Shown piece after piece: positions 9,911-40,345 of a DNA stretch of 64,000 bases. The position numbers were made by a program, and so were the translations under genes. Location: NCBI GenBank assembly GCA_035533075.1, contig DATLUO010000281.1, positions 1-64,000 on the forward strand, in the 5' to 3' direction. The stretch's first letter is position 1; each line of letters begins with the position of its first letter. The notes below the pieces were generated by a model. That model saw only the letters and a program-made list of their open reading frames with translations. It made no database searches and was not told where the DNA came from. Origin of the DNA: Pirellulales bacterium (GTDB lineage: Bacteria > Planctomycetota > Planctomycetia > Pirellulales > JAICIG01).

Positions 9911-10603
9911 TTGCACATTTTGGCCCTCGAAACCAGCGGAACCAGCGGCAGCGTGGCCGTTTTTGACGACGGCAACGTCTTGGCCGAGGTGCGGCTAGAG
10001 CCCGCTCAGCGCAGCGCAAGAGTGCTGGCACCGGCTATCAAGCGGCTCATCGAGCAGGTCGCCTGGAGGCCGGCCGACGTGGATTTGGTGGCCGTTGCCA
10101 TCGGCCCCGGCTCGTTCACGGGGCTGCGTGTCGGCGTGACGACTGCCAAAACGTTCGCCTACGCCGTCGGCGCGGAGGTCTTGGCCGTCAACACGCTGGA
10201 GGTCATCGCGGCCCAGGCCACGACGGCGGGCCACGGCGAGCTGATTGCCGCGGCCATCGACGCCCAGCGCGGCGACGTCTACACGGCGACGTTTCGCCGC
10301 CGCGCGCCGTTGGGTCTCGAAATCGTCGTCCCGGTGAGCATTCGCCGCGCTGACGAATGGATCGCCGGCTTGTCGGCTGGCACGCTGGCAACCGGGCCGG
10401 CGCTGGAAAAGCTGTTGCCGCGATTGCCGGCTGACGTGGCTGTTGCCGCCGGAGAACTCTGGTTTCCCCAGGCGAACATGGTTGGCCGGCTGGCGGCCGC
10501 GAAGCACGCCGCCGGGCAGCGCGACGACCTCTGGCGGCTGGCGCCCCTTTATCTGCGGGCCAGCGCCGCCGAAGAGAAGGCCGCTCGCCAAGGCGGCGAT
10601 TGA
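9911..10603 (+). CDS. tsaB: tRNA threonylcarbamoyladenosine biosynthesis protein TsaB
   Basis: A partner of TsaD and TsaE in making t6A at position 37 of ANN-decoding tRNAs, in the cytoplasm. The start is read as TTG at 9911, giving the conserved MHILALETSGTSGSVAV. The frame stays open upstream to 9827, but that part encodes repeat sequence. The 230 residues are normal for the family. AIGPGSFTGLRVGVTTAKTF is the TsaB/TsaD-like ASKHA signature. The last third is less conserved, as usual. TsaD and TsaE are not in this window. It is convergent with the response regulator gene. Confidence 0.92.
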   Translation: MHILALETSGTSGSVAVFDDGNVLAEVRLEPAQRSARVLAPAIKRLIEQVAWRPADVDLVAVAIGPGSFTGLRVGVTTAKTFAYAVGAEVLAVNTLEVIAAQATTAGHGELIAAAIDAQRGDVYTATFRRRAPLGLEIVVPVSIRRADEWIAGLSAGTLATGPALEKLLPRLPADVAVAAGELWFPQANMVGRLAAAKHAAGQRDDLWRLAPLYLRASAAEEKAARQGGD

Positions 10604-26085: not shown

Positions 26086-26673
26086 CTACGAAGGCAGCAG
26101 CTCGCCCAACTCCTCGCGCAAGCGATGCAGCACGCGCGATTTGGCCTTGCGGACCGCCGCTGGCGTAACGCCCAGGTCGGCGGCGATCAAGGCGGGCGAT
26201 TGGCCCTCGACCGCCGCCCGCCAAAACGCCTCCCAGGTGCGTTGCTCGAACTCGCCTTGCACCAGCTCGAGCGCACGATGGTAAACCCCGCTCAGCTCTT
26301 CGGCGGTGTCGTCGGGCCATTCTTGCTCGGCCACCTGCTGCAACTGCAAGTGGGCCTCGGTGCCGCCCTGGGCCTGGGGGTCCTTGCCGCGGCGGCGAAA
26401 ATGGTCGAGCAGCTTGTTGCGCGTGACGCCGCGCAGCCAGCCGCGAAAGGTGTCGCCCGGCCGGTCGCGGCGAAAACCCTCCAGGCCCGTGGCCACCGCC
26501 TGAAACACCTCTTGCTGGATGTCGTCGGCGTCCTGGCCCGTCACGCCGCGATGACCGCACCAGCGAGCGACCAGCGGGCCGTAGAGGTGTACCAGGCGTC
26601 GCCAGGCCTCCTCGTCGCCGTCGCGCACCCGCCCCAACAACGTCAAAGAGGTCTGTTTGTCCGGCGGATTCAT
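26086..26673 (-). CDS. ECF-type RNA polymerase sigma factor
   Basis: A 195-residue sigma-70 family factor of the extracytoplasmic type. Region 2 reads WRRLVHLYGPLVARWCGHRG and DADDIQQEVFQAVATGLEGF, with TFRGWLRGVTRNKLLDHFRR for promoter melting. Region 4 reads FWRAAVEGQSPALIAADLGV then TPAAVRKAKSRVLHRLREEL, the -35-binding helix-turn-helix. The start at 26673 gives MNPPDKQTSLTLLGRVRDGD, a typical N-terminus; the longer frame to 26886 runs through a palindromic repeat. It is divergent from a Ser/Thr kinase gene whose N-terminus has an anti-sigma-like zinc motif, so the two probably work together. Confidence 0.93.
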   Translation of the reverse strand: MNPPDKQTSLTLLGRVRDGDEEAWRRLVHLYGPLVARWCGHRGVTGQDADDIQQEVFQAVATGLEGFRRDRPGDTFRGWLRGVTRNKLLDHFRRRGKDPQAQGGTEAHLQLQQVAEQEWPDDTAEELSGVYHRALELVQGEFEQRTWEAFWRAAVEGQSPALIAADLGVTPAAVRKAKSRVLHRLREELGELLPS

Positions 26674-26741
26674 GGAGTGCTTTCGGCCTTGCCAGGGCGA
26701 GTCTACTTCACGCGGTTGAGAATGACACCCGAGCCGCCGCT

Positions 26742-26835
26742 TCTGTAGGGAACGCCCTCCGTGGCGTTCCACGGCTTCGCCCGAGGAGAGTCCATTGGTA
26801 AGCCGCGGAACGCCACGGAGGGCGTTCCCTACAGA
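26742..26835. repeat. long perfect-arm palindrome between sigma factor and kinase genes
   Basis: Arms of 36 nt (26742-26777 and 26800-26835) match with one mismatch around a 22-nt loop. The core is TGTAGGGAACGCCCTCCGTG on the left and its complement on the right. It sits in the 344-bp divergent intergenic region, which holds no other recognisable feature. It may be a mobile miniature element, or a strong hairpin in one of the two 5' leaders. Confidence 0.92.
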
Positions 26836-27017
26836 GACTTCGGGACCAAGGATCTTACTTCCGGGCGCGTGAAGTATAACGCACAAGATGTCACAGCCGC
26901 CGCGATTAGGTTAGTATGTTGTGAGTTTGTCGAAACGCAACCCCCGATCGCTTTTAGGTTCTGTTTTCTCCGTCAGCCACCCAACCCCCCTCCCATCGTC
27001 TGAGAGCGACCCGCCCC

Positions 27018-30000
27018 GTGCTTCGTAATTGTCCTCCCGAACCCGACCTGCTGGCTTTCCATTTGGGAACGCTGGCCGACCACGAAGTCGATCGCGTGGC
27101 TGAGCACCTGGAGACGTGTTCGGCCTGTGAAGCGGTCGTCCGACTGCTCGAAACCGAGGTCGACCCGTTGTTGGCCGCGCTGCGCCGACCGCACTCCGCG
27201 CCTTCAGACACTTTCGGTCTTGCCAGCGGGCGACGGCCTGAGCGGCCCGAAGCGGACGAGGCCGCGCCGGTCGGGCACGAATTGCCCGGCTATGAAATCC
27301 TGGGCGTGCTGGGCCGCGGTGGCATGGGCGTGGTATATCTGGCCCGGCAAATCGGCGTCAACCGGCTGGTGGCCCTCAAACGATTGCGCACGACCAATCC
27401 GAAAGAAGCGGCACGCGCCCGCGTCGAGGCCGAGGCGCTCGGCCGCCTGCAGCATCCTTATATCGTGCAGATCCACGAAGTGGTCGAGCACGAGGGGCGC
27501 GTCTACCTGGCGTTGGAGTACGTCGAGGGCGGCTCGCTGCAAGCCAGGCTGACCGGCAAGCCGCAGACGAGCGAGGCCGCCGCAAAGCTGATCGAGCTGG
27601 TGGCGCGGGGCGTCCACCACGCTCACCTCAACGGCATCGTCCACCGCGACCTGAAGCCGGCCAACATCTTGTTGGCGCGCGGCGCGCAGGAGTCGGAACT
27701 GTGCGCGACAAACCACGGCGCGCGAACGACGTCCTACGGTTTGCCCAAGATCGCCGACTTCGGCATCGCCAAATGGCTCGCCGACGACTCCGGCCACACC
27801 GAGCATGGCGACGTGCTGGGCACCGCCACCTACATGGCCCCCGAGCAGGCCGCCGGCAACTTGGACCAGATCGGGCCGGCCACCGACATCTACAGCGTCG
27901 GGGTCGTGCTCTACGAACTGCTTACGGGCCGCGTACCGCTGCAAGGGATCACCACGCTGGAAACGCTGGCCCTGGTGCGCGGCGAGGAACCCGTTTCGCC
28001 GCGCCGGCTGCAACCGCAGATTCCGCGCGATCTGGAAACGATTTGTCTCAAGTGCTTGGAGAAGGAACCGTCAGCCCGCTACTCCAGCGCGGCCGCGCTG
28101 GCCGACGATCTGGACCGCTTTTCGAACCACGTGCCGATTCATGCGCGGCCGATCACCTTCTGGGAACGTGGGTGGAAATGGGCCAAGCGACGGCCCGCCG
28201 TGGCGGCGTTGTCGCTGGCTTTGGTGCTGGTGGCGGTCGCCGCAGTGGCGGCGGTTACCCGGCAATGGCGGCTGGCCGAGGAGCAGGCGGCGAATGAGGT
28301 GGTTCTTCGCGGCACGGCCGAGCGGAACGAACGTAAAATCGAGCGCCTGTCCGCCAATATGATGCTCGATCGGGCCGCCGCGCTGTGCGAGGCGGGCGAC
28401 ATTCGTCGCGGCTTGCTGTGGATGGTCGAGGCGCTCGATGCCAGTTTGCACGCCGGCGACAGCGACCTGGCGCGCGTGGCCCGCCTGGACTTGGCGGGCT
28501 GGATGCCCTTTGTGGTGAGCGATCGCGCTCAGTGTTCGCCCGTCGCCGTCACCGCGGCGATGTTTGATCCGCGCGGCAACGTGCTGCTTACCGGCGGCCC
28601 CGATGGCCAGGCACGGCGATGGGACGCCCTCACCGGCCAACCCCTCGGTCGATCGCTGGAACACGCGGGGCCGATCCGGGCATGCTCCTACAGCGGCGAT
28701 GGGAAAACCATCCTGATCGGCTGCGACAACGGGTCCGGGGGCGGAGAGGCGCGCGTTTGGCACGCTGCCACGGAGAAGCCGCTTTGTCGCGCATTGATGC
28801 ATGCGCGGCCGGTGATTCAAGTTGCGTTTTGCGGCCATGACCAAACGTTTATAACGGTCACCGCCGACGAAACCCGGCTTTGGAGCAGCGATGGCCGGCC
28901 CATCGGCCAAGCGATGACGCACGATCCGCTGTACGTCGACGCTGCCGGCCGTCCGCGGCCGATGACGGCGTCCGTCAGTCCGGATGGTGCGTTGATTGCC
29001 ACGGGAGGCAGCGATCTGATGGTGCGTCTTTGGAACGCCGCGACGGCCGAGCCGGTCGGCCGACCGTTGGAGGCCACGCACGCCGTCGTCGCGCTGGCCT
29101 TCAGTCCCGACAGTAAAGTCGTGCTCGCCGGCGCCGCCGACGGAGGCGTGCGGATGTGGGACGCCGGCACCGGCGAGCGCCGCGGCGAAAGCCTGAAAAT
29201 GCGCGGTATTGTCAACGCCGTCGCCTTCAGTCCCGACGGCCAGATTGCCGCGGCGGCGGGCGCGGTGGGCGAACCGCACCTGCAACCGTCCGGCGAGGTG
29301 CAGCTTTGCCAGGTGGAAACCGGCCAGAACCTGGGAGCTGCCCTGGCCCACCCCCGTCCCGTGCGAGCGCTGGCCTTCAGCCCGGGCGGCCGGCTGTTGC
29401 TCACCGGTTGCGACGACGGACAGGCGCGCTTCTTTCTGACCGCCACGGCGTCGCTGCTGGGCCAACCACTGCACCACGAGGGCCCCGTCACCGCCGTGGG
29501 CTTTAGCGCCGACGGCGGCACGGCGGTAACGGCAATCGCCACGGGCGACAGCCCTGCCTGCGCCCGTCTGTGGCAGACCCCGCGCGAGCAACCGTTGGGC
29601 AGACCCTTGGTCTTGCCCGGTGAGCTCGACAACATCGCGTTCGCTCCCGACGGCGCCCTGCTTGCCGGCACTCGCGACGGCTCGTCAAGGCGATGGGAGT
29701 TGAACGGCGACGTAGCGCGCAGGGTGCCGGAGCGGCGCGCGGGGCCCCTTGCCGCCCCCGCCCCTGGCGGGCGCGGCCGGGCAAACGATTCAGACGCCGG
29801 CCCCAATTCCGTTGATTCGCCCGATGGCGGCTACATTCTGGAGGCGGATACCGACCAGCACGCGCGGCTCCACGATGCGGCCACAGGGAAGGCCTTTGGG
29901 CCGCCGATCGGCGGCAAGGATGTCTGCTGCATCGCCTTCAGCACCGACGACACGCGGCTGGCTGCCGGCAGTTCTGACGGCCGAATCGCTCTCTGGAACA

Positions 30001-30164
30001 GGTGGCCGCCGCTCAACGGAGATCCGGAGCGCGTGCGTTTGACCATTGAACTGCTGACGGGAATGGAGTTGATCGCGCACGAGTCGGCTCGCAAGCTATC
30101 GCAGACCGAACTGGAAGATCGCCGTCGCCGCCTGGACGAGTTAGGCGGTCCATGTGTCTTTTAG
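27018..30164 (+). CDS. membrane Ser/Thr protein kinase with zinc-finger N-terminus and WD40-like repeats
   Basis: A 1048-residue receptor-like kinase. Residues 30-37 carry HLETCSAC, the HX3CX2C motif of zinc-binding anti-sigma factors. The kinase domain (about 90-360) has LGRGGMGVVYLA (P-loop), VALKRL (Lys), HRDLKPANILL (catalytic loop), DFGIAKW and MAPEQAAGN. About 20 extra residues (ELCATNHGARTTSYG) lie between the catalytic loop and DFG. One membrane helix follows at about 391-415 (VAALSLALVLVAVAAVAAV). The outer part has at least seven WD40-like repeats (e.g. AFSPDSKVVLAGAADGGVRM). The start is GTG at 27018. The order suggests that an external signal through the propeller changes kinase activity, and that the zinc motif docks the divergent sigma factor. 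Confidence 0.9.
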   Translation: MLRNCPPEPDLLAFHLGTLADHEVDRVAEHLETCSACEAVVRLLETEVDPLLAALRRPHSAPSDTFGLASGRRPERPEADEAAPVGHELPGYEILGVLGRGGMGVVYLARQIGVNRLVALKRLRTTNPKEAARARVEAEALGRLQHPYIVQIHEVVEHEGRVYLALEYVEGGSLQARLTGKPQTSEAAAKLIELVARGVHHAHLNGIVHRDLKPANILLARGAQESELCATNHGARTTSYGLPKIADFGIAKWLADDSGHTEHGDVLGTATYMAPEQAAGNLDQIGPATDIYSVGVVLYELLTGRVPLQGITTLETLALVRGEEPVSPRRLQPQIPRDLETICLKCLEKEPSARYSSAAALADDLDRFSNHVPIHARPITFWERGWKWAKRRPAVAALSLALVLVAVAAVAAVTRQWRLAEEQAANEVVLRGTAERNERKIERLSANMMLDRAAALCEAGDIRRGLLWMVEALDASLHAGDSDLARVARLDLAGWMPFVVSDRAQCSPVAVTAAMFDPRGNVLLTGGPDGQARRWDALTGQPLGRSLEHAGPIRACSYSGDGKTILIGCDNGSGGGEARVWHAATEKPLCRALMHARPVIQVAFCGHDQTFITVTADETRLWSSDGRPIGQAMTHDPLYVDAAGRPRPMTASVSPDGALIATGGSDLMVRLWNAATAEPVGRPLEATHAVVALAFSPDSKVVLAGAADGGVRMWDAGTGERRGESLKMRGIVNAVAFSPDGQIAAAAGAVGEPHLQPSGEVQLCQVETGQNLGAALAHPRPVRALAFSPGGRLLLTGCDDGQARFFLTATASLLGQPLHHEGPVTAVGFSADGGTAVTAIATGDSPACARLWQTPREQPLGRPLVLPGELDNIAFAPDGALLAGTRDGSSRRWELNGDVARRVPERRAGPLAAPAPGGRGRANDSDAGPNSVDSPDGGYILEADTDQHARLHDAATGKAFGPPIGGKDVCCIAFSTDDTRLAAGSSDGRIALWNRWPPLNGDPERVRLTIELLTGMELIAHESARKLSQTELEDRRRRLDELGGPCVF

Positions 30165-31190: not shown

Positions 31191-34100
31191 TTAGCCGGCG
31201 GCGGATCCGCCAGCACCCGCACCGGCACCGGCCGGCGCGCCGGCCGGGCCGTTGAGCAAGGCCATATTTAGAACGTGAAGCAGGTTTTGTCCATTGGGGG
31301 TGCCCCAACCCGATGCCGCGTCGTAGCCGGGACCGGCGCTGTAACCGCCGACCTGCGAGGTGTTATTGTCGCCCGACTCGACGTCAGTGCAGCCGAGAGC
31401 GCCGACGGCCTGTGCGCCAAGCTTCTGATACAGGACCGGCGTTACATAACCGAGCCGCTTGCCAGGGCCGCGCTGGCCGTTGATGCGGGTGATGAGTGCC
31501 GCCACAAGGGGCGAGGCGGCGCTCGTCCCGCCGTTGGGCTGCGCGTGGCCGTCGACGACCAGCAAGTAGGGCGAAGCCGTCCAGTCAGCATTGGCCGATA
31601 AATCGGGGATGCAGCGGCCGAGGATTGCGCCTGGATTGACCGAAATGATGTTATCCAACCCCGCCTGCCAAGCCGGTCGCGGAAAGACAGCGCTGACGCC
31701 CCCGCCCGTGCTCCCGCCGTTATCGTTTCGCAAGCCATCTCCTTCTTTCCAGGCCACGTCGGGTGCCGATCCGTCATCGGCCAGGACCGTCGTGCCACCC
31801 ACCGATAGTACATACGGGCTCGATCCCGGAAAATCGACGTGGGCATGTCCGTCCAGGTCGGCGTCGCTCGATCCGTCATCACCGGCGGCGAGGCAAACCG
31901 TGATCCCCAAGTGAGCCGCTTCCAAGAAACTTTCATTCACCTGCGTCATCGCCTGCTCAGTCCAGATGTCGGTGTCTTCCGGCGCGCCCCAACTGATCGA
32001 CAGTACCCCAGGGTCGTTATGGCTATCCTGGATTGCGGCATCGAGGGCTGTGATCCATCCGATTTCCGTCCACTGGGCAAAATAGACGGCGATGTTCGCC
32101 TCGGGGCACACGCCGGCCACTACCTCGATATCGAGCATCACTTCGCCTTCGGCGCCATCCTTTGCCGACGTGGACGTTCCGTCTGTGCTAATGGCGGTCA
32201 CCGTCGGGGGTGAGATGCCCGCCAGACTGCAGAACTTCTTCAGGTCGTCGGGAAAGTACCCGCCGCCGAATTCCAACAGTCCGACCGTTTGTCCGCTGCC
32301 GTCGCCCGAGGGATAGTTGTAGTGAGCGGCGAGCTGTAGTCCGTCGAGATGCGTTCTCAGCGAGGTGTTGTTAGAATTCTCGGCCAGGCCCGGAACCGCG
32401 CATTGCAGAGATTGCCAGATCCGCAACGACGCCTCCAACTCGAAACGTCTCGGCAGGCGCGATAAGAGCAACCAGGCCAGCGCTTTGCGAGTCTTCCGCG
32501 GCAGCCGCTGGAAGGCGTCGGCCATCGGGTGCCGCGCCAGCCTTCGCAAGAGCTCTAAAAACACGTAGCTGCCCCAGAGAAATTGCCAGATGGTGAGCCA
32601 GAACAGGCCGACGACCGCGAGCCACGTTAGCCACACAACGGTGTTGAACTGCGCCGATTCGTAGGCCGCCAGGGAGTGTGCCCAAGCGACGACCAGGAAT
32701 AAGAAGGGGAAGATGATCAAAGTATGCCACGCCAAGACCCGCGACACGGAGGCAAAACCATGCCCGAGCACCGCTCGCCACGTGAAATCCTCGGCGTCGT
32801 TGCGGGACGGCCAGCCTCGGCCGCTTTCCAGGCAACCCACCAAGGGGCGGATAATCTGTGTCAAGCCGGCATAGTTGAGATCGCGAGGCTGTTGCGGCGC
32901 GCGCTCAAACGGATTCAACAATGGAAAGCGATCCGCAAAACTGCGACGCTGCAGATGGCCCCGGAACCACCAGGCGATCGCGATCGCCACAAAAAAGCAG
33001 GGAAGCGTGGGCGTCACGCGGTCGCCGAAGCGCGCCGATCGCTCCAAAAAAATCGCGGCGTCGGAAAGCGGCTTCGATGGATTGGAGACCAGATACAGCA
33101 CGACCGCCTCAACGGCCGCCGCCGCGATGAACGACCACGATACGGTACGCATGACCACTGCGGGCACTCGGGCACAGTCTTGGCGGATTCGTGGCCGCCG
33201 CATGGCGAGGACGGTGCCAACGGCAACGGCTGCGAAAACCGCGCCCAGCGCGGCGTGCTCGGTTGCCAATACAGCCAAGATCACGGCCTGACGCCTCCAG
33301 TTATCAGTCCCGAAGCAGAATGACACTCTACCGCGGAGCCAAAGCGAAAGATGAACGAGCGTGGGCGAAGCAAGAGCAATCTCGGCCGCCAACAACGAGA
33401 GAAAATAGGGCACCGGCCACCAGTAGTGCCGAAACGCGTCGTCGCCGCCAGCCGTCGCTACGATGTGGCCGGCCAGATAGCGCAGGGAGCTTACCACGCA
33501 AAAGCCGCTGAATCCCGTCGCGATGAGGCCCAGCATGCCGCGCAAGCCATCTTCAATATCTGGGTCGCCGTAGGTCGCAGACGAATCGCGATAGGAGTGA
33601 TGCGGCTTTTTCTCGCTCACAGCTCGTAGAACGTAGTGTCGGTCGTTTTCGCTGGCGTCTTGCGCGTTCCCTGGCGTGTCCCGGATAGTTTTGTCGTCGC
33701 CGTTCTTGGGCAGTTGCTGCTGTTCCAATGGTTGCCATTTCTCTCGCGGAACGACGGCGATGGGCCAAAATTCGCCGTTGCTGACGGCAGTCAACCATAC
33801 TGGCGGCGCGACGTGATATCCGTCGCCGATGTCCTCGAATGGCGTGCGGTATTCGAGTGGCTCAAACGCAACTCGACTCGCCGGGCCGTTTGCCGCCCGA
33901 GGCTGGTCGTCGGAGCAGCGCGACGACTCGCTGCCGCCGGGTACAGGCAAGTCGCTTTGCGCCAAAAGCGCCAACGTGGCATTGTAAACGCCCTCAGAGG
34001 CTACGTTGGTGAAGGAGATTCTGCGCGATGCGCTGCGCGGATCGAGCGCAGTCCACTTCTGATTCTTGCTGATGAGAGGATAGGTCGTTGCGATTAGCGA

Positions 34101-35675
34101 ACCTTCCAAGGCAGGCCCGACGTCGGGATGAGTAAAAATGGAATCCGCTCGAAACAGCACGAGTTGAACTTCGGGACAGTAGAACCGCACCTGCTCGGCC
34201 AGGAATAGCTGGTCGCGAACATCGGTGGCGATCAGACCAATGCAGCGAATCCCTCTGCGGGTCATCGACAGGAGAATGTGCGCGATGGATCGCTCCACGG
34301 AGGAAATCGTGGTTGGCGAAAAGGATGGCACGTGTTGCGGCGTCCCCCTTGTGTCTCCGAGTGAAAGATCGAGGTTCGATTTGGGTGCATTATCGACGTC
34401 GCGCCGCTTGCCGGTGAGCAGCCGCGAGTCTTTGTCGTACGCGCTTCGCATGGAGCTGATGTGCATCGGAAAAGGCACCTGAAGTACGTCGCCTTGGGGC
34501 GACGTTAAGGTTTGACTCGCCTTTTTCCCGGCGCCCTGCCGGGGCTTCGCTACCGGCAACAATAACTGTTCGCCAAAACTCGTGTCCGCCTCCGTGAGGA
34601 ACGCAACCTGATGCGGTTCGATGCCGTGTTGCCACAAATGGTCCAGCAGCACTTCGCGGATGACCGAATCGGGAATAACCGTGGCATGAAACGTTACGCT
34701 GAGGCCGGGCCGATTGGCCGACAGTTCGCGGAATTCGAGGACCGATTTATTGGATATCGCGGATGCAGAGCCAGATACACACGAAATTGCGACGGGCGCT
34801 TCGGCGCTATCTCCTCCAGACCATTCCTTGAACCACTCGCCGATCGCCAGGCGAATCGACGAGGCAGCCCCAGAAAAGAACGGCGCCACGAGATGAAGCC
34901 GCAAGCTCGTCTTCGACAGTGGATCCGGCGGCGCGGACGGTTCGGGCCCAGCGGAGACCGGCGCTCGTGGAGTTGCCTGCCAAAAAGACAAAAAGTCGAG
35001 CGATCTTCTGAGTGCAACCTTATCGACGCCTGTGGTCGGGGTTTCACCAACGACGAAGACCGCTAAGACGTCGCTCGCATTTCCGGAGCAGCGAAAAAGA
35101 ATCAGCCCGGGCGCATGGTCGGCTGTCTTGGTTAAGACGCCGGGGCTCACCCCAGGTCCATCGCGTGCGGGTGCCCACGGTAGCCAGTAGCGATCGAATA
35201 CGTAACCTCGACGTTCGGCAGCACGCTGGAGTCCGTCGAGGGTGATGTCGCTAAAATAACCCAAGTTGGAATCAATCGGGTCGGGCACCGATAGGATCAA
35301 GAATCGAACGCGAATTCCGTGCTCGTCGGCTGCCGCACGAAGCGAACCGACTTCCGCAAGCGTCGGCGGACTGGGGCTAGGCGGGCTGATGCCAGCCGCG
35401 CGGCTCACCGCCGCCGCTAACGCATCGAAGAAGCCAGGAGAGCTGGGGTTGAATTCGGCGCTGTAAAACTCCTCGATCAAACGTTCCGGATCTTTGCCGC
35501 GAATCGATGCTAGGGCAGTGTGGGCGTCGATGCCCCCGGTGGTTTGCTCCCGCACGGGGGCGGCGCCGCAACCGTTTGCGGTAGTAAGCGGACGAGTATC
35601 CGGTCCAAGGCGCATAGCAAAGGCAGCAACCAGTCCTAACAGAAATGCTTGACCGATGGTTCGATTCATAGACAA
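31191..35675 (-). CDS. fusion of periplasmic-binding-like region, seven membrane helices and S53 (sedolisin) peptidase
   Basis: A 1494-residue protein. Residues 1-25 are a signal peptide or anchor. Residues about 30-660 are extracytoplasmic; parts such as RGIRCIGLIATDVRDQLFLA and VQLVLFRADSIFTHPDVGPA resemble type I periplasmic-binding folds. About seven membrane helices follow (roughly 700-1060). From about 1115 to 1460 there is a complete sedolisin domain. It begins QLAAHYNYPSGDGSGQTVGL, with Glu1178 and Asp1182 (EGEVMLDIEV), Asp1266 (AAGDDGSSD), Ser1385 (GGTSAASP), and a Ca-site region DVESGDN...GWGTPNG. All catalytic residues have family spacing. Sedolisins are normally secreted with a pro-domain, which is absent here. 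By helix count the peptidase would face the cytoplasm. A glycine/alanine tail ends the protein. Confidence 0.85.
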   Translation of the reverse strand: MSMNRTIGQAFLLGLVAAFAMRLGPDTRPLTTANGCGAAPVREQTTGGIDAHTALASIRGKDPERLIEEFYSAEFNPSSPGFFDALAAAVSRAAGISPPSPSPPTLAEVGSLRAAADEHGIRVRFLILSVPDPIDSNLGYFSDITLDGLQRAAERRGYVFDRYWLPWAPARDGPGVSPGVLTKTADHAPGLILFRCSGNASDVLAVFVVGETPTTGVDKVALRRSLDFLSFWQATPRAPVSAGPEPSAPPDPLSKTSLRLHLVAPFFSGAASSIRLAIGEWFKEWSGGDSAEAPVAISCVSGSASAISNKSVLEFRELSANRPGLSVTFHATVIPDSVIREVLLDHLWQHGIEPHQVAFLTEADTSFGEQLLLPVAKPRQGAGKKASQTLTSPQGDVLQVPFPMHISSMRSAYDKDSRLLTGKRRDVDNAPKSNLDLSLGDTRGTPQHVPSFSPTTISSVERSIAHILLSMTRRGIRCIGLIATDVRDQLFLAEQVRFYCPEVQLVLFRADSIFTHPDVGPALEGSLIATTYPLISKNQKWTALDPRSASRRISFTNVASEGVYNATLALLAQSDLPVPGGSESSRCSDDQPRAANGPASRVAFEPLEYRTPFEDIGDGYHVAPPVWLTAVSNGEFWPIAVVPREKWQPLEQQQLPKNGDDKTIRDTPGNAQDASENDRHYVLRAVSEKKPHHSYRDSSATYGDPDIEDGLRGMLGLIATGFSGFCVVSSLRYLAGHIVATAGGDDAFRHYWWPVPYFLSLLAAEIALASPTLVHLSLWLRGRVSFCFGTDNWRRQAVILAVLATEHAALGAVFAAVAVGTVLAMRRPRIRQDCARVPAVVMRTVSWSFIAAAAVEAVVLYLVSNPSKPLSDAAIFLERSARFGDRVTPTLPCFFVAIAIAWWFRGHLQRRSFADRFPLLNPFERAPQQPRDLNYAGLTQIIRPLVGCLESGRGWPSRNDAEDFTWRAVLGHGFASVSRVLAWHTLIIFPFLFLVVAWAHSLAAYESAQFNTVVWLTWLAVVGLFWLTIWQFLWGSYVFLELLRRLARHPMADAFQRLPRKTRKALAWLLLSRLPRRFELEASLRIWQSLQCAVPGLAENSNNTSLRTHLDGLQLAAHYNYPSGDGSGQTVGLLEFGGGYFPDDLKKFCSLAGISPPTVTAISTDGTSTSAKDGAEGEVMLDIEVVAGVCPEANIAVYFAQWTEIGWITALDAAIQDSHNDPGVLSISWGAPEDTDIWTEQAMTQVNESFLEAAHLGITVCLAAGDDGSSDADLDGHAHVDFPGSSPYVLSVGGTTVLADDGSAPDVAWKEGDGLRNDNGGSTGGGVSAVFPRPAWQAGLDNIISVNPGAILGRCIPDLSANADWTASPYLLVVDGHAQPNGGTSAASPLVAALITRINGQRGPGKRLGYVTPVLYQKLGAQAVGALGCTDVESGDNNTSQVGGYSAGPGYDAASGWGTPNGQNLLHVLNMALLNGPAGAPAGAGAGAGGSAAG

Positions 35676-35772
35676 AAACCGGTGGGTTCGCCGACACGGC
35701 TAGAACTCGATACGCGACGATCCCTCCTGGACGGTTGACAGTGCAGACGGCGGTAATTTGGCAGAGGTGGAC

Positions 35773-35805
35773 TCGACGTTCAATCGACTTTCTCTCGATC
35801 TTCTC
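35773..35805 (-). promoter_or_regulatory. 11-bp iteron array A (3 units)
   Basis: On the plus strand: TCGACGTTCAA, TCGACTTTCTC, TCGATCTTCTC, exactly 11 bp apart. It lies about 100-130 bp upstream of the sedolisin-fusion start. Direct repeats at 11-bp spacing are the usual layout of OmpR/PhoB-family operators, so a regulator of that kind is the best guess. The 20 bp beside it are also similar to array B. Confidence 0.6.
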
Positions 35806-35850
35806 GCGAAGTCGCGGGTTTATTCCATTAGTCGGGCCCTGCCTCAGGGG

Positions 35851-36532
35851 CTAAATCTGGCCTGGAAATCGAGCCTGAAGGGCTTGCACAAAATGTCCGG
35901 CGAGTTGCTTGAAGCCGTCGGGATAAGGATGTAACTCGTTCGCCCAGTCGCCGGGCTTAAGCGTGCCTTGTGTGTTGACGAGAATGAAGTTGTTGGCGGC
36001 GTTGCCCGCCAAGCCGAGAAGCATCGTGTTGAAGGTGGCTAGTGCTTGCCGAACAATCGACGTGCCTTGCGCGAGGTTCCAGCCACAATAGTCGAGCGAC
36101 GGTTTGAGCCAAGGGCCGGCACAAGCCGGGTGCGAGCCGTTGGGAATCGCAAAGTCGTAGCTGTGAGCGAAGGGCCTGAATGATCCGCTCCTGCTTCGGC
36201 AGCGACATTTCTTCGGTGGTGGCGTCGCCAACGTGCGAGACGTGGAGGATCACCGGGCTTGTGTTGCCCATCAGCGCGAGCTGGGCGACGATGTCGGTGC
36301 TGTGGACCGAGACGTCGTTGCCGGCCAGGGGGTAGTCGAATCACGAGTCGCCGTGGGCCAGCATGACCAACGGCTCGGCGGGCACGGGCGCGCCGGCCAG
36401 CGCTGCCGCGGCGATCACTTGCGTGCTCGATTTCAGACGTGCGATGGTCCGCTGATGCGCGGCCGTCCGCTCGGCGATTTCATCGTCGATCGCGTCTCGC
36501 AACTGCTGCCGTAGTGCAATGCTTTCACGCAT
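35851..36532 (-). pseudogene. SGNH (GDSL-type) hydrolase gene with nonsense codon and frameshift
   Basis: It opens with MRESIALRQQLRDAIDDEIA and reaches LVMLAHGDS, then a TGA at 36341-36343. The same frame goes on as FDYPLAGNDVSVHSTDIV, VILHVSHVGDATTEEM. The family block I motif is GDSWFDYPL, so TGG (Trp) has become TGA. A second lesion at about 36165-36180 shifts the frame; the next frame gives AHSYDFAIPNGSHPACAG and the C-terminal block V, ELHPYPDGFKQLAGHF. Two independent lesions argue for real decay and not sequencing error. The enzyme would have been an esterase or lipase. Confidence 0.82.
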
Positions 36533-36595
36533 GACTTCCCCGCTTCATCGCCCGGTCATTTCACGAGCGATGGCGGTACTTTGGCACAGGCTGAC

Positions 36596-36639
36596 TCGAT
36601 CTTCAATCGACGTTCTCTCGATCTTCACTCGATTTTCTA
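36596..36639 (-). promoter_or_regulatory. 11-bp iteron array B (4 units)
   Basis: On the plus strand: TCGATCTTCAA, TCGACGTTCTC, TCGATCTTCAC, TCGATTTTCTA, each 11 bp. It lies about 65-105 bp upstream of the SGNH pseudogene and 18 bp past the end of the papain-like fragment. The order of unit types matches arrays A and C. Confidence 0.6.
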
Positions 36640-36656
36640 CGATCGAACTGGCGGGC

Positions 36657-37196
36657 CTAAAACGCCATCATTTCCCAGAGATACTTGTCGATGTACGTCG
36701 CGGAAATTTGGCCGTAGCCGATTTCGGGGGAGAAATAGCCGGGAGAAGGCGCCTGGGTGGCCCAAACGCTGCCCCAACTGTTGCGGAGGATGAACCAGCC
36801 GCCCACGGGTTCGGATGGGTCGGGTTCAAACCGAGTCACGCAAATTGCATGGCCGCCCGCCACCACCGACGTCGGTAGAGGGTCGATCACTCGGCCGTAG
36901 AGTGCGCCGATCGCCGTATTCCAGTTCGTGGCCAATGGGTTCAGCGCGTCGCGGAAAACGGGTACGGAAATGGCGACCGGGCGCTGCCCGCTCTGCAGAG
37001 CGCTCAGCACGGCGGCAGCACCGCCCGACGACTGATACAGCCCCGGGGTGAGAAGCCGACCGCCCGCGTCGGCCTGCGCAGCCGCGGAAGGATCGGCCGC
37101 GGACTGTTGGCCTATATTGCCCGGAATTGGAGTGCCGTTGTAATTCCAAAGCGCTTCGGGGCAGATACCGACGGTCGCCAAAGCGGCGCGTGCATA
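36657..37196 (-). pseudogene. papain-like (C1) peptidase gene, 5'-truncated
   Basis: About 179 residues are readable after a TAA at 37197-37199. The sequence ALATVGICPEALWNYNGTP, then SVVAGGHAICVTRFEPDP with the catalytic His and GGWFILRNSWGSVW with the catalytic Asn, are clear C1 family features. The part with the catalytic Cys (normally QGxCGSCWA) should lie about 40-60 residues upstream of the first readable residue. It is absent, and the space is occupied by a gene on the other strand. The fragment cannot be active alone. Confidence 0.75.
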
Positions 37197-37295
37197 TTAG
37201 AGGGGTCAAGGGACATTGGCGTGCTCCGCAGTTGGCTAATTTAACGGACTGTCTTCTTGCTTGAACTGCCGAAACGAATTAGAATTTGCTTTGAA

Positions 37296-37658
37296 ATGCC
37301 TCACCTGACCCTAAGACCTCTGTCTTTAAGACCTCTGGCGACCGCCACGACGCGGCCGGGCGATTTTGGCATTCGGCTGACCGGTGACGGGCTGCTTGCG
37401 CCCCGGAATATCCTGATTGAGCTAGAAAAGCTGGGTATCCGCGACGGCGTCCAGTTGGTGTCGTTCGCGAACGCATTTCCGTCGTCATTGGCGTCGGTGT
37501 TCGGATGGTCGGTTGATGAGGTCATCGGCGCTCGTGAAGCGCTGTTGAATGACTTGCGGGGATTGCTGCCTGACGAAGTTTTGAATCCGCCTCCCGCTCC
37601 TCTACGTGCCTTCGGTGCGATGCCGCCGGTTGCGGCCGACGAATCAGAGCCGAGTTGA
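37296..37658 (+). CDS. small hypothetical protein
   Basis: A 120-residue protein (start at ATG 37296; TTG at 37257 is a longer alternative). It reads MPHLTLRPLSLRPLATATTR, then ILIELEKLGIRDGVQLVSFA and VFGWSVDEVIGAREALLNDL, so it has an amphipathic helical middle and a proline-rich tail. There are no signal peptide, membrane segment or known motif. Its composition looks coding, unlike the antisense frames. It occupies the place where the lost 5' end of the papain-like gene would have been, and ends 13 bp before iteron array C. I do not recognise it. Confidence 0.5.
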   Translation: MPHLTLRPLSLRPLATATTRPGDFGIRLTGDGLLAPRNILIELEKLGIRDGVQLVSFANAFPSSLASVFGWSVDEVIGAREALLNDLRGLLPDEVLNPPPAPLRAFGAMPPVAADESEPS

Positions 37659-37670
37659 GTATCTCGGGGA

Positions 37671-37703
37671 TCGATCTTCAATCGACGTTTTATCGATCTT
37701 CTT
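37671..37703 (-). promoter_or_regulatory. 11-bp iteron array C (3 units)
   Basis: On the plus strand: TCGATCTTCAA, TCGACGTTTTA, TCGATCTTCTT, 11 bp each. Unit 1 is identical to unit 1 of array B. It overlaps the end of a doubtful minus-strand ORF and may have been the upstream site of the now truncated papain-like gene. Confidence 0.55.
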
Positions 37704-37917
37704 GGCGCTCGCGGCGACCATTGCGGCGGGCCGGCCGTTTGGGTTTGCCGTTGTGCGACGGGTGACGAGTCGCCTTTTTCTGCCGCCACTCCCAGCGGAC
37801 CGCACCGCCATCAGCGTGAAAGTCGATGTGCGTCTGCCGCTGGTTAAGCTTGTAAACCGCGTCGGCCAGGTGCGACGGCTCGTTGCCGTCGGGCAGACCA
37901 TTCAGCGGCTTCGCCAC
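37690..37917 (-). CDS. possible small hypothetical protein
   Basis: A GTG-started frame of 75 residues reads MAKPLNGLPDGNEPSHLADA and VYKLNQRQTHIDFHADGGAV, then becomes basic and repetitive. The first 45 residues look like real protein, the end does not; it may be a remnant of a longer gene. No ribosome binding site is clear. It is in the 365-bp gap between the gene ending at 37658 and the GH2 gene; the rest of that gap has no feature except iteron array C. Confidence 0.3.
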   Translation of the reverse strand: MAKPLNGLPDGNEPSHLADAVYKLNQRQTHIDFHADGGAVRWEWRQKKATRHPSHNGKPKRPARRNGRRERQEDR

Positions 37918-38023
37918 GCGGTCTTCGGGTTTCGGGGTCCATCACGCGGGCTGGCGTTCGCCGTGGGTCGGAACTAGACTTGATCTCCGTTGTGGCAACT
38001 GGGTTCGTAACGATGGGACGCCG

Positions 38024-40345
38024 ATGATGACGCGCACTTTATTGACGCTGGCCTGTTTCAGCCTGGCAATCGACACCGTATCCGCCGCGGACTGGCAGCC
38101 GGCCAAAGGGCCGCTCAAGACCCGCTGGGCCGACGACGTGTCGCCCGACAGGCCCCTGCCCGAATATCCGCGGCCCCAGTTGGTGCGGACCGATTGGCAG
38201 AACCTCAATGGTCTGTGGCAGTACGCCGTCCAGCCGAAAGCCGCCGAAAAGCCCGCACAGTACGAGGGGCAAATCCTCGTGCCTTTTCCCGTCGAGTCGG
38301 CGCTGTCGGGCGTGATGAAACGCGTGGGGCAGGACCAGCGGCTCTGGTATCGACGCACGTTCTCGCGCGACGATTCTTGGGCGGGCCGCCGCTTGCTGCT
38401 GCACTTCGGCGCGGTCGATTGGGAAACCAAAGTCTGGGTCAACGGCCGACCGGTCGGCGAGCATCGCGGCGGATACGATCCCTTCACCTTCGACATCACC
38501 GATGCCCTCCGCGAGCGCGGCGAGCAGGAAATCGTCGTCTCCGTGTGGGATCCGACCGACGCCGGACCGCAGCCCCGCGGCAAACAGGTCAACAAGCCCG
38601 GCGGCATTTACTATACGCCCACCAGCGGCATCTGGCAGACGGTCTGGTTGGAACCCGTGCCCAAGGGCCACATCGAGTCGCTGAAGATCGTGCCCGACGT
38701 CGATCGGCACGCCGTGCGGGTCACCGTGCGATGTGCCGGCCAAACGGGCGACGACCGCGTGACCGTGAGCGTAGCGGGAGCCAGTGCGGGAGAAAAGACT
38801 GCGCCGGTCAAGGCCGTTTCGGCGAACGGCCGGCCCGGCGAAGAGCTATTAGTCGAGTTGGCCGACGCGCGTCTCTGGTCGCCCCGCGAACCGTGGTTGT
38901 ATGACCTTTCGGTGACGCTCGGATCGGGCGACCAACCCGGCGACCGCGTGACGAGCTATTTCGGCATGCGCAAAGTTTCGCTGGGGCCGGACGAGAACGG
39001 CGTGACTCGCATCCAGTTGAACGACCATCCGCTGTTCATGTTTGGCCCGCTCGACCAGGGCTTTTGGCCCGACGGGCTTTACACGGCTCCGACCGACGAG
39101 GCTCTGCGTTACGACGTGGAGCTGACGCGTGAGATCGGCTGTAACATGTGCCGCAAGCACGTCAAGGTCGAGCCTGCCCGCTGGTATTATTGGTGCGACA
39201 AGCTGGGACTGCTGGTTTGGCAAGACATGCCCAGCGGCGACAAGTCGGTGGGGCCGGGCAAAGGCGAGATCGAGCGGTCGGCGGAGTCGGCGGCGATTTA
39301 CGAGCACGAGCTGCGGGCCATGATCGACAATCTGCACAACGCGCCCAGCGTGGTGATGTGGGTGGTGTTCAATGAGGGCTGGGGCCAGTTCGATACGGTC
39401 CGCGTCACCGAATGGACGAAGCAACACGACCCGTCGCGGCTGGTGAATTGCGCCAGCGGCTGGAACGACTTTCCGGTCGGCGACGTACACGACATCCACA
39501 ACTACCCGGCCCCCAACTCGCCCGAACCCGAACCGAAGCGAGCGGCCGTGCTGGGCGAATACGGCGGGCTAGGGCTGCCGCTGAAAGGCCACACCTGGCT
39601 GGGAGAGAAGAACTGGGGATATCGCAACTACGGCGACCGCACCGCGCTGGCCGATGCCTATTTCGGGCTGCTGTTTGGTTTGCGGCAGTTGACTTCGTCG
39701 CCGGGACTTTCGGCCGCCGTCTACACGCAAACCACCGACGTCGAGACCGAGGTGAACGGGCTGTTGACGTACGATCGCGAGTTCTTGAAGATTCCGGCCG
39801 AGCGGTTGGCCGCCGCGCATCGACGGCTCTACCTGCCGCCGCCGCGGCTGCTGGCGGTGGTTCCGACCTCGGAAGAAACCGCCACCGACTGGCGGTATAC
39901 CACCACCAGGCCCGCCGACGGTTGGCGGCAAAAGAAGTTCGACGATTCATCGTGGCCGCTGGCGCCGGCCGGCTTCGGCACCAAGAGCACGCCGGGGTCG
40001 GTGGTGCGTACCGAGTGGAACACGCCCGATATTTGGCTGCGGCGGACGTTCGACGTGCCGGACAGCGCCGTCGGCGAAGGGCTGTTCAGCGATCCGCACT
40101 TGATGGTCCACCACGACGAAGACGCCGAGATTTACATCAACGGCGTGCTGGCGGCGACACTGCCCGGCTTCACGGTCGGGTATGGCGCCTTCCCCATGCG
40201 GCAAGAGGCCCGCGCCGCCATGCGGGCCGGCTCGAACGTGCTGGCCGTGCATTGCAAGCAAACCGGCGGCGGCCAGTACATTGACGTCGGGCTGGTGGAC
40301 GTGATGGAAACGCCGGGCGAAGAAGGGATTCGCGCCGGAAAGTAA
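38024..40345 (+). CDS. secreted glycoside hydrolase family 2 enzyme
   Basis: A 773-residue enzyme of the beta-galactosidase/beta-glucuronidase type. Residues 1-23 are a signal peptide (RTLLTLACFSLAIDTVSA). Then come a sugar-binding jelly roll (LVRTDWQNLNGLWQYAV, WYRRTFSRDD, VWVNGRPVGEHRGGYDPF), an immunoglobulin-like domain, and the TIM barrel. The barrel shows MCRKHVKVEP, VVFNEGWGQFD (acid/base Glu) and LGEYGGLGL (nucleophile Glu). The last 150 residues form a second jelly roll (LRRTFDVPDSAVGEGLF, EIYINGVLAATLPGF). It is probably periplasmic and acts on a beta-linked plant or algal sugar. It stands alone and has no sugar transporter nearby. Confidence 0.92.
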   Translation: MMTRTLLTLACFSLAIDTVSAADWQPAKGPLKTRWADDVSPDRPLPEYPRPQLVRTDWQNLNGLWQYAVQPKAAEKPAQYEGQILVPFPVESALSGVMKRVGQDQRLWYRRTFSRDDSWAGRRLLLHFGAVDWETKVWVNGRPVGEHRGGYDPFTFDITDALRERGEQEIVVSVWDPTDAGPQPRGKQVNKPGGIYYTPTSGIWQTVWLEPVPKGHIESLKIVPDVDRHAVRVTVRCAGQTGDDRVTVSVAGASAGEKTAPVKAVSANGRPGEELLVELADARLWSPREPWLYDLSVTLGSGDQPGDRVTSYFGMRKVSLGPDENGVTRIQLNDHPLFMFGPLDQGFWPDGLYTAPTDEALRYDVELTREIGCNMCRKHVKVEPARWYYWCDKLGLLVWQDMPSGDKSVGPGKGEIERSAESAAIYEHELRAMIDNLHNAPSVVMWVVFNEGWGQFDTVRVTEWTKQHDPSRLVNCASGWNDFPVGDVHDIHNYPAPNSPEPEPKRAAVLGEYGGLGLPLKGHTWLGEKNWGYRNYGDRTALADAYFGLLFGLRQLTSSPGLSAAVYTQTTDVETEVNGLLTYDREFLKIPAERLAAAHRRLYLPPPRLLAVVPTSEETATDWRYTTTRPADGWRQKKFDDSSWPLAPAGFGTKSTPGSVVRTEWNTPDIWLRRTFDVPDSAVGEGLFSDPHLMVHHDEDAEIYINGVLAATLPGFTVGYGAFPMRQEARAAMRAGSNVLAVHCKQTGGGQYIDVGLVDVMETPGEEGIRAGK

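Follow-up and report, generated by a model that had tools for sequence, protein, structure and literature searches.

A rare family of 11-bp direct-repeat arrays with a frozen core in Pirellulales as candidate binding sites for a DNA-binding protein

Three short arrays of 11-bp direct repeats lie in a cluster of peptidase and hydrolase genes in a Pirellulales bacterium, and they raise the question of whether they are operators, and for which genes, or an intergenic repeat without a part in gene control. A first-pass annotation of the 64,000-nucleotide stretch of DNA analysed here (the window) had described three arrays at 11-bp steps in the same orientation, and had read them as OmpR/PhoB-type operators of a small hydrolase regulon. 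A check of the sequence found arrays A, B and C to be real, all on the plus strand, and the coordinates given for them to be exact (Table 1). The units follow one another at exact 11-bp steps with a common order and orientation. That the same unit types recur in the same order, as had also been claimed, was confirmed across these three arrays and two further ones (D and E, below): unit identity is 86% at the same place in the array and 73% at different places. The unit had been given as TCGAYSTTC. The 11-bp repeat stands but the letters do not, as the middle unit of A has a T at the position given as S and the middle unit of C has a TTT end; TCGAYNTTY is the better consensus.

Two units in tandem, written as TCGAYSTTC-NN-TCGAYSTTC and allowing up to 3 mismatches, match the window seven times, and all seven matches are inside arrays A to C. 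Among 100 dinucleotide shuffles of the window the mean was 0.67 and the largest count 4, with none reaching 7. The arrays are spaced 823 and 1075 bp apart, with gene fragments in between. For A and B, the repeat is longer than the array, with 84% identity over 64 bp (35746-35809 and 36569-36632). This is the only pair for which the spacer flanks can be aligned between copies, and thus the array outlasts its surroundings.

Table 1. Coordinates of the arrays, their flanks and the neighbouring genes (window positions, except for the last line)
Feature	Coordinates	Strand	Description
Sedolisin fusion ORF	31191..35675	-	Intact ORF of 1494 aa, with a match to kumamolisin-As at residues 1112-1469 (1sio, E 1.8e-80)
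Left flank of array A, common to array B	35746..35772	+	Within the 64-bp, 84% repeat
Array A	35773..35805	+	Three 11-bp units: TCGACGTTCAA TCGACTTTCTC TCGATCTTCTC
SGNH-type frame	35851..36535	-	Broken: in-frame TGA and frameshift
Left flank of array B, common to array A	36569..36595	+	
Array B	36596..36639	+	Four units: TCGATCTTCAA TCGACGTTCTC TCGATCTTCAC, the fourth starting TCGATTTTC
Papain-like C-terminal fragment	36657..37181	-	5'-truncated; weak PDB match 3ois, E 0.052
ORF between papain-like fragment and array C	37257..37658	+	133 aa; no Pfam, NCBIfam or PHROG match
Array C	37671..37703	+	Three units: TCGATCTTCAA TCGACGTTTTA TCGATCTTCTT
Gene X C-terminal fragment	37684..37923	-	66% identity with residues 208-298 encoded by the intact copy beside array E
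Gene X, intact, beside array E	L029:415-1353	-	312 aa; contig JAICLL010000223.1

In the 8.54-Mb genome, the three-unit pattern found four arrays (five matches; reversed control, none): A, B, C and D, the last on another contig (C189). Array E lies on contig JAICLL010000223.1 of a Pirellulales MAG (G001) from another genus of this family. In a set of 57 genomes of the order, the pattern matched the present genome (G000), G001 and G014, and the reversed control gave one match (G052). When 3 mismatches were allowed, 5 of 396 genomes of the order matched; the three besides G000 and G001 did so with 3 mismatches each, and we treat these weak matches as chance. An array profile search of G000 and G001, in which 150 first-look candidates per genome (of 1836 and 1309, respectively) were scored, gave A to E 41-47 bits and the next match, inside a coding ORF, 15.7 bits. 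In this analysis these two genomes alone represent the bacterial family. The pattern that led to D and E contains the core defined below, and copies with a changed core could have escaped it; against that, neither the 3-mismatch pattern nor the profile, among the candidates scored, returned a further copy in G000 or G001. Decayed copies, at between 16 and 41 bits, were likewise not seen among the candidates scored. The exact pattern had no match in viral contigs, and plasmids gave two matches at chance level (E 3). Contig matches in Myxococcales, Polyangia, Methanosarcina and Clostridia were rejected as relatives: they are tandem repeats with different flanks. Given four arrays in G000 and few matches elsewhere, the element is rare and lineage-restricted. 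The first-pass annotation had named hundreds of copies, none linked to promoters, as the outcome that would make the arrays a dispersed repeat; the genome search found four in 8.54 Mb, and a dispersed high-copy repeat is rejected.

The proposed hydrolase regulon is not supported by the genes around the arrays. One of the five, A, lies just upstream of an intact hydrolase ORF, about 100 bp from the sedolisin ATG, and A alone is clearly in the promoter region of an intact gene. B is 62 bp upstream of the broken SGNH frame, C faces a plus-strand ORF that intervenes before the 5'-truncated papain-like frame, and E is upstream of an SGNH fragment, and D is some 237 bp upstream of an AAA_25 ATPase gene. 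Of the three arrays in the window, each of which had been placed before a minus-strand hydrolase gene (in the third case only probably), A alone is thus just ahead of an intact one. The distance from an array to the next start codon also differs, from 62 bp to several hundred. We found no sigma-70-like promoter in 35500-38100, and the ORFs of the window that were scanned near the arrays include no OmpR-type regulator.

A wider set of two-unit sites is not indicated either. Were the arrays the strongest members of a larger regulon, weaker sites of two units would be expected in spacers. With up to 2 mismatches, the two-unit pattern has 33 matches besides the arrays in G000, where its reversed control has 5, and 22 in G001, where the control has 6. 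A 0.92-Mb sample of this genome, made up of 45 stretches and including two contigs chosen because they bear arrays, contained 6 two-unit matches outside arrays, a mild excess over 30 shuffles (mean 1.4, largest 4), and all 6 are in probable coding ORFs. Since 19 of the 23 distinct non-array places examined fall in probable coding ORFs, the excess is mostly codon usage.

What the arrays have in common is their position behind genes. All five, in one orientation, either overlap a minus-strand gene or gene fragment at its 3' end or lie within 0-45 bp of that end, so that a role at 3' ends fits their positions at least as well as an operator does. Read along its minus strand, the window has the gene X fragment followed by array C, then, past the plus-strand ORF, the papain-like fragment and array B, and lastly the broken SGNH frame, array A and the sedolisin. 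The order in G001 is intact gene X, array E and an SGNH fragment ended by the contig edge; that is, SGNH-array-X there versus SGNH-array-papain-ORF-array-X here. The SGNH DNA is 81% identical over 248 bp between the two genera and the gene X DNA 77% over 137 bp, and the spacers between the two genes can be aligned only in the array. The SGNH label is that of the first-pass annotation, and no Pfam family matched; the single open stretch of this frame is its C-terminal 126 aa (35851-36231), a part present in 3 of 146 genomes. Array E overlaps the gene X stop codon, and the reading frame of the gene X fragment in the window, which has one internal TAA, extends into array C. D is located between the ATPase gene and a gene fragment that runs into the array; we take this fragment to be Calx-beta-like, and it had no Pfam match. 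In all, four of the five arrays have a broken gene or a gene fragment as a direct neighbour on one side or both, and A follows the broken SGNH frame. A conserved peptide-coding unit was rejected as the source of the repeat, as the frame entering the array is the same in the two gene X cases (C and E) and another in D.

The units themselves have changed very unevenly. With E as the reference, we defined the core as the unit positions identical in all three E units (1-4 and 7-9). Compared with E, arrays A to D are changed in 1 of 84 core cells and in 11 of the 48 cells at other positions (Fisher p 5.6e-5), and the picture is the same with any of the five arrays as definer. If shared changes are counted once, 1 of 11 changes falls in the core, which makes up 21 of the 33 columns (binomial 3e-4, on events counted by eye). 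The order of the loose positions is partly common to the copies, which indicates common descent, and the five copies in this test are thus related rather than independent. At the free-position rate, about 19 changes would be expected in the 84 core cells where 1 was observed. That rate, 23%, is near the 19% by which the neighbouring SGNH DNA differs between the two genera; the free positions therefore evolve as if neutral and the core stays frozen, and this is also the case in copies adjoining broken genes. Two features of OmpR/PhoB/ArcA-type sites are present, direct repeats of one turn (11 bp) and constraint on the same positions in every repeat. The frozen core looks like the mark of selection on a one-turn direct-repeat candidate binding site, and we infer that protein-DNA binding, not use in RNA, is the cause. 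The arrays are real, they are rare, and they probably have a function in DNA recognition.

Tentatively, and with a little less than even confidence, we suggest that the arrays are candidate docking sites for a DNA-binding protein that binds side by side, and that they are old in the family, have been copied and have kept their core. One protomer would occupy each 11-bp turn, so that protomers would be lined up on one face of the helix, and the protein would read TCGA and TTC in each unit while ignoring positions 5, 6, 10 and 11. Such a layout, of three or four direct repeats, is that of ArcA/PhoB-type operators. The element would be old in the family, being found in two genera; local duplication would have given A and B, D would be one distant copy, and every copy would have retained a readable core. 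The exact 11-bp steps, the same seven frozen positions in each copy, the lack of decayed copies among the candidates scored and the likeness to the layout of ArcA and PhoB sites all support an operator-like site. It counts against a working operator that B, C and E have only broken genes, or none, downstream, which would be odd, that the start-codon distance varies, and that no promoter-like hexamers were found. The first-pass reading is thus supported in part, for its operator-like layout and not for its hydrolase regulon.

Several known systems are comparable with the arrays. In E. coli, the motif of ArcA, an OmpR-family response regulator, occurs in 158 of 176 bound regions; its sites hold two to five direct-repeat elements, mostly with an 11-bp centre-to-centre spacing, and 92 of the 158 have three to five (PMC3798270). 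The arrays share the direct repeats and the spacing but not the unit sequence, and here there are four genomic sites, several of them by broken genes, for a putative binder. The PhoB box is composed of two 11-bp repeats, in each of which 7 bp are conserved and 4 bp less so (PMC2648988). The arrays have the same 7 + 4 split into frozen and loose positions, although the frozen ones are themselves divided (1-4, 7-9) and the sequence is unrelated to CTGTCAT. The RptR operator, which is bound in a modular way, consists of three direct repeats that each contain the short palindrome TAGCTA (PMC12255303), as the units here contain TCGA; its repeats are 9 bp, however, and RptR is a defence-island regulator of Gammaproteobacteria. 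The TAACTGA repeats of Beggiatoaceae and Cyanobacteria, which are reported to have no known function (PMC4679880), are also short intergenic direct repeats, but they are heptamers, and one genome contains 169 sets, most of them immediately ahead of start codons. The arrays share the architecture of the ArcA, PhoB and RptR sites; membership in none of these can be claimed, as the sequences differ and the binder is only putative. A literature search for '11-bp direct repeats' together with 'operator' and 'response regulator' found nothing, and one on ATTCGTCATTC had no title on Planctomycetes among the matches listed.

The strong rival to docking sites is a family-specific intergenic repeat that plays no part in controlling genes at these places. 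The arrays would be this family's own form of such a repeat, and duplication and rearrangement would have spread it beside gene fragments, in spacers that tolerate rearrangement. We regard this as possible, if on balance doubtful. It is strong because other 11-bp arrays occur in the spacers of relatives: Pirellulales spacers carry direct repeats that we call TTCGTCATTC-type and ATCCGTGTTTC-type (the names are our own), often as the arms of long hairpins, and their existence makes the 11-bp step by itself weak evidence for an operator. Like the arrays, these are direct repeats that advance by 11 bp and are located in spacers of this order and of this genome; they differ in unit sequence and usually have long inverted-repeat arms. 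Arrays of TCGNNNTTC at 11-bp steps occur in six further genomes of 396, and of the five inspected, four are TTCG-N-CATTC-like spacer repeats, three of them with inverted arms seen by eye. The 0.92-Mb sample contains eight period-11 arrays, four of the TCGAYNTTC family, compared with a mean of 0.8 and a largest count of 4 in ten block shuffles; the remaining four include two ATCCGTGTTTC repeats that have inverted arms. The frequent broken genes beside the arrays also suit such a repeat. What it does not readily explain is the single core change, since a neutral repeat of this age should have acquired many more, or the empty interval in the profile scores, where decayed copies should appear. Nor does any of A to E have an inverted arm nearby. 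The arrays are set apart from the other 11-bp repeats by the frozen core and by having neither inverted arms nor, among scored candidates, decayed copies.

The position of all five arrays directly behind or overlapping minus-strand 3' ends, in one orientation, would also suit an element of the RNA, in which the minus-strand transcript (GAAGAUCGAGAGAACGUCGAUUGAAGAUCGAG in B) ends transcripts or binds an RNA-binding protein after each gene. We consider this unlikely. Folding z-scores of the minus-strand RNA for A to E (-0.66, -1.54, -0.65, -2.51 and +0.61) are not unusual, no terminator-like hairpin with a T-run was found on the minus strand at the arrays, and there was no Rfam match in 35500-38000 at E up to 1; with no consistent folding and no Rfam match, RNA structure was rejected. 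Of the five genes preceding arrays, two are moreover only fragments, that of gene X at C and the Calx-beta-like one at D. The same arrangement, with the spacing and intervening gene fragments in the window and the difference in gene order between the two genera, could be expected if a gene and its downstream array formed a movable unit with the arrays as integron-like recombination or cassette boundaries, an idea we hold to be very improbable. An integron itself was rejected, as neither genome has an integrase (TIGR02249) over the cut-off; both have only lower-scoring tyrosine-recombinase matches, as do all 14 control genomes. Hairpins at the arrays are not consistent (in folds with RNA parameters, D is the one exception to unexceptional values), and the viral and plasmid searches, with no match to the exact pattern in the one and only chance-level matches in the other, argue in the same direction.

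If the docking-site reading is right, a protein must read the arrays, and gene X is a candidate binder by position only, being encoded beside C, as a fragment, and beside E. Relatives of gene X were found in 14 of 39 genomes searched, G000 and G001 included. The protein had no match in Pfam (E up to 0.01), NCBIfam or PHROGs; three relatives had no Pfam match at E up to 1, with no receiver or Trans_reg_C domain recognised, and a gene X profile had no match among PDB sequences at E up to 1. A structural model of a relative (mean pLDDT 83.8, pTM 0.48) has an N-terminal domain like the MarR winged helix (best Z 10.0, 86 residues, 2.2 A) and a C-terminal domain with the order strand-strand-strand-helix-strand-helix-strand-strand, which we take to resemble that of OmpR-type DNA-binding domains. 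With a first model (mean pLDDT 66.5), Foldseek listed the DNA-binding domain of SaeR as one weak match (4qwq, E 2.3). OmpR-type chains were absent from two further fold-search lists, which barely covered the C-terminal domain, so that their absence excludes nothing. Gene X represents an uncharacterised planctomycete family, predicted to have two winged-helix domains. When the 14 gene X genes were examined for 11-bp arrays, only E and one C-rich stretch (L038, 7 of 11 columns) were found; as the 13 other homologues, this stretch excepted, have no comparable array, gene X is not generally tied to arrays. It is a distinctly long shot, in our estimate, that the arrays are a portable 33-bp operator, kept in every copy by selection while the adjoining genes decay and read by gene X; one protein would then mark and control a shifting set of genes.

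In Planctomycetes, few regulators have known sites. If protein-bound, the arrays would provide a compact, testable planctomycete operator and an example of a binding site that outlasts its genes. If they are not, they show that spacers of this order repeatedly take the form of direct repeats at 11-bp steps, and they warn against calling operators by layout alone.

Some further observations concern other repeats and genes. Gene X relatives have a conserved C-terminal motif around 'FEEEGWPxRIDDPLPP...RRLHDTIKSLNRNQ...RFxGDGxGEGIRWE'. The sedolisin has about 1100 residues ahead of its kumamolisin-like peptidase without a Pfam match but with apparent hydrophobic segments, and elsewhere in the window a minus-strand gene for a Sigma-70 region 2 / ECF-type sigma factor (26086-26886) lies beside a protein kinase-WD40-like ORF (27018-30164). 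Tandem arrays of TCGATCTTCNN or TCGACCTTCNN at 11-bp steps were seen in the Polyangia MAG Co_bin.371 (L030 and L031, two in one MAG) and in Myxococcales (L026). Spacer hairpins with 11-nt direct repeats of the TTCGTCATTC or ATCCGTGTTTC types on both arms recur in Pirellulales (L124, L125, L126, L164 and L143), and a pyrimidine-rich spacer of G360 (L127, near 9945-10019) contains seven perfect TCGCTCTTCTT-type repeats at 11-bp steps.
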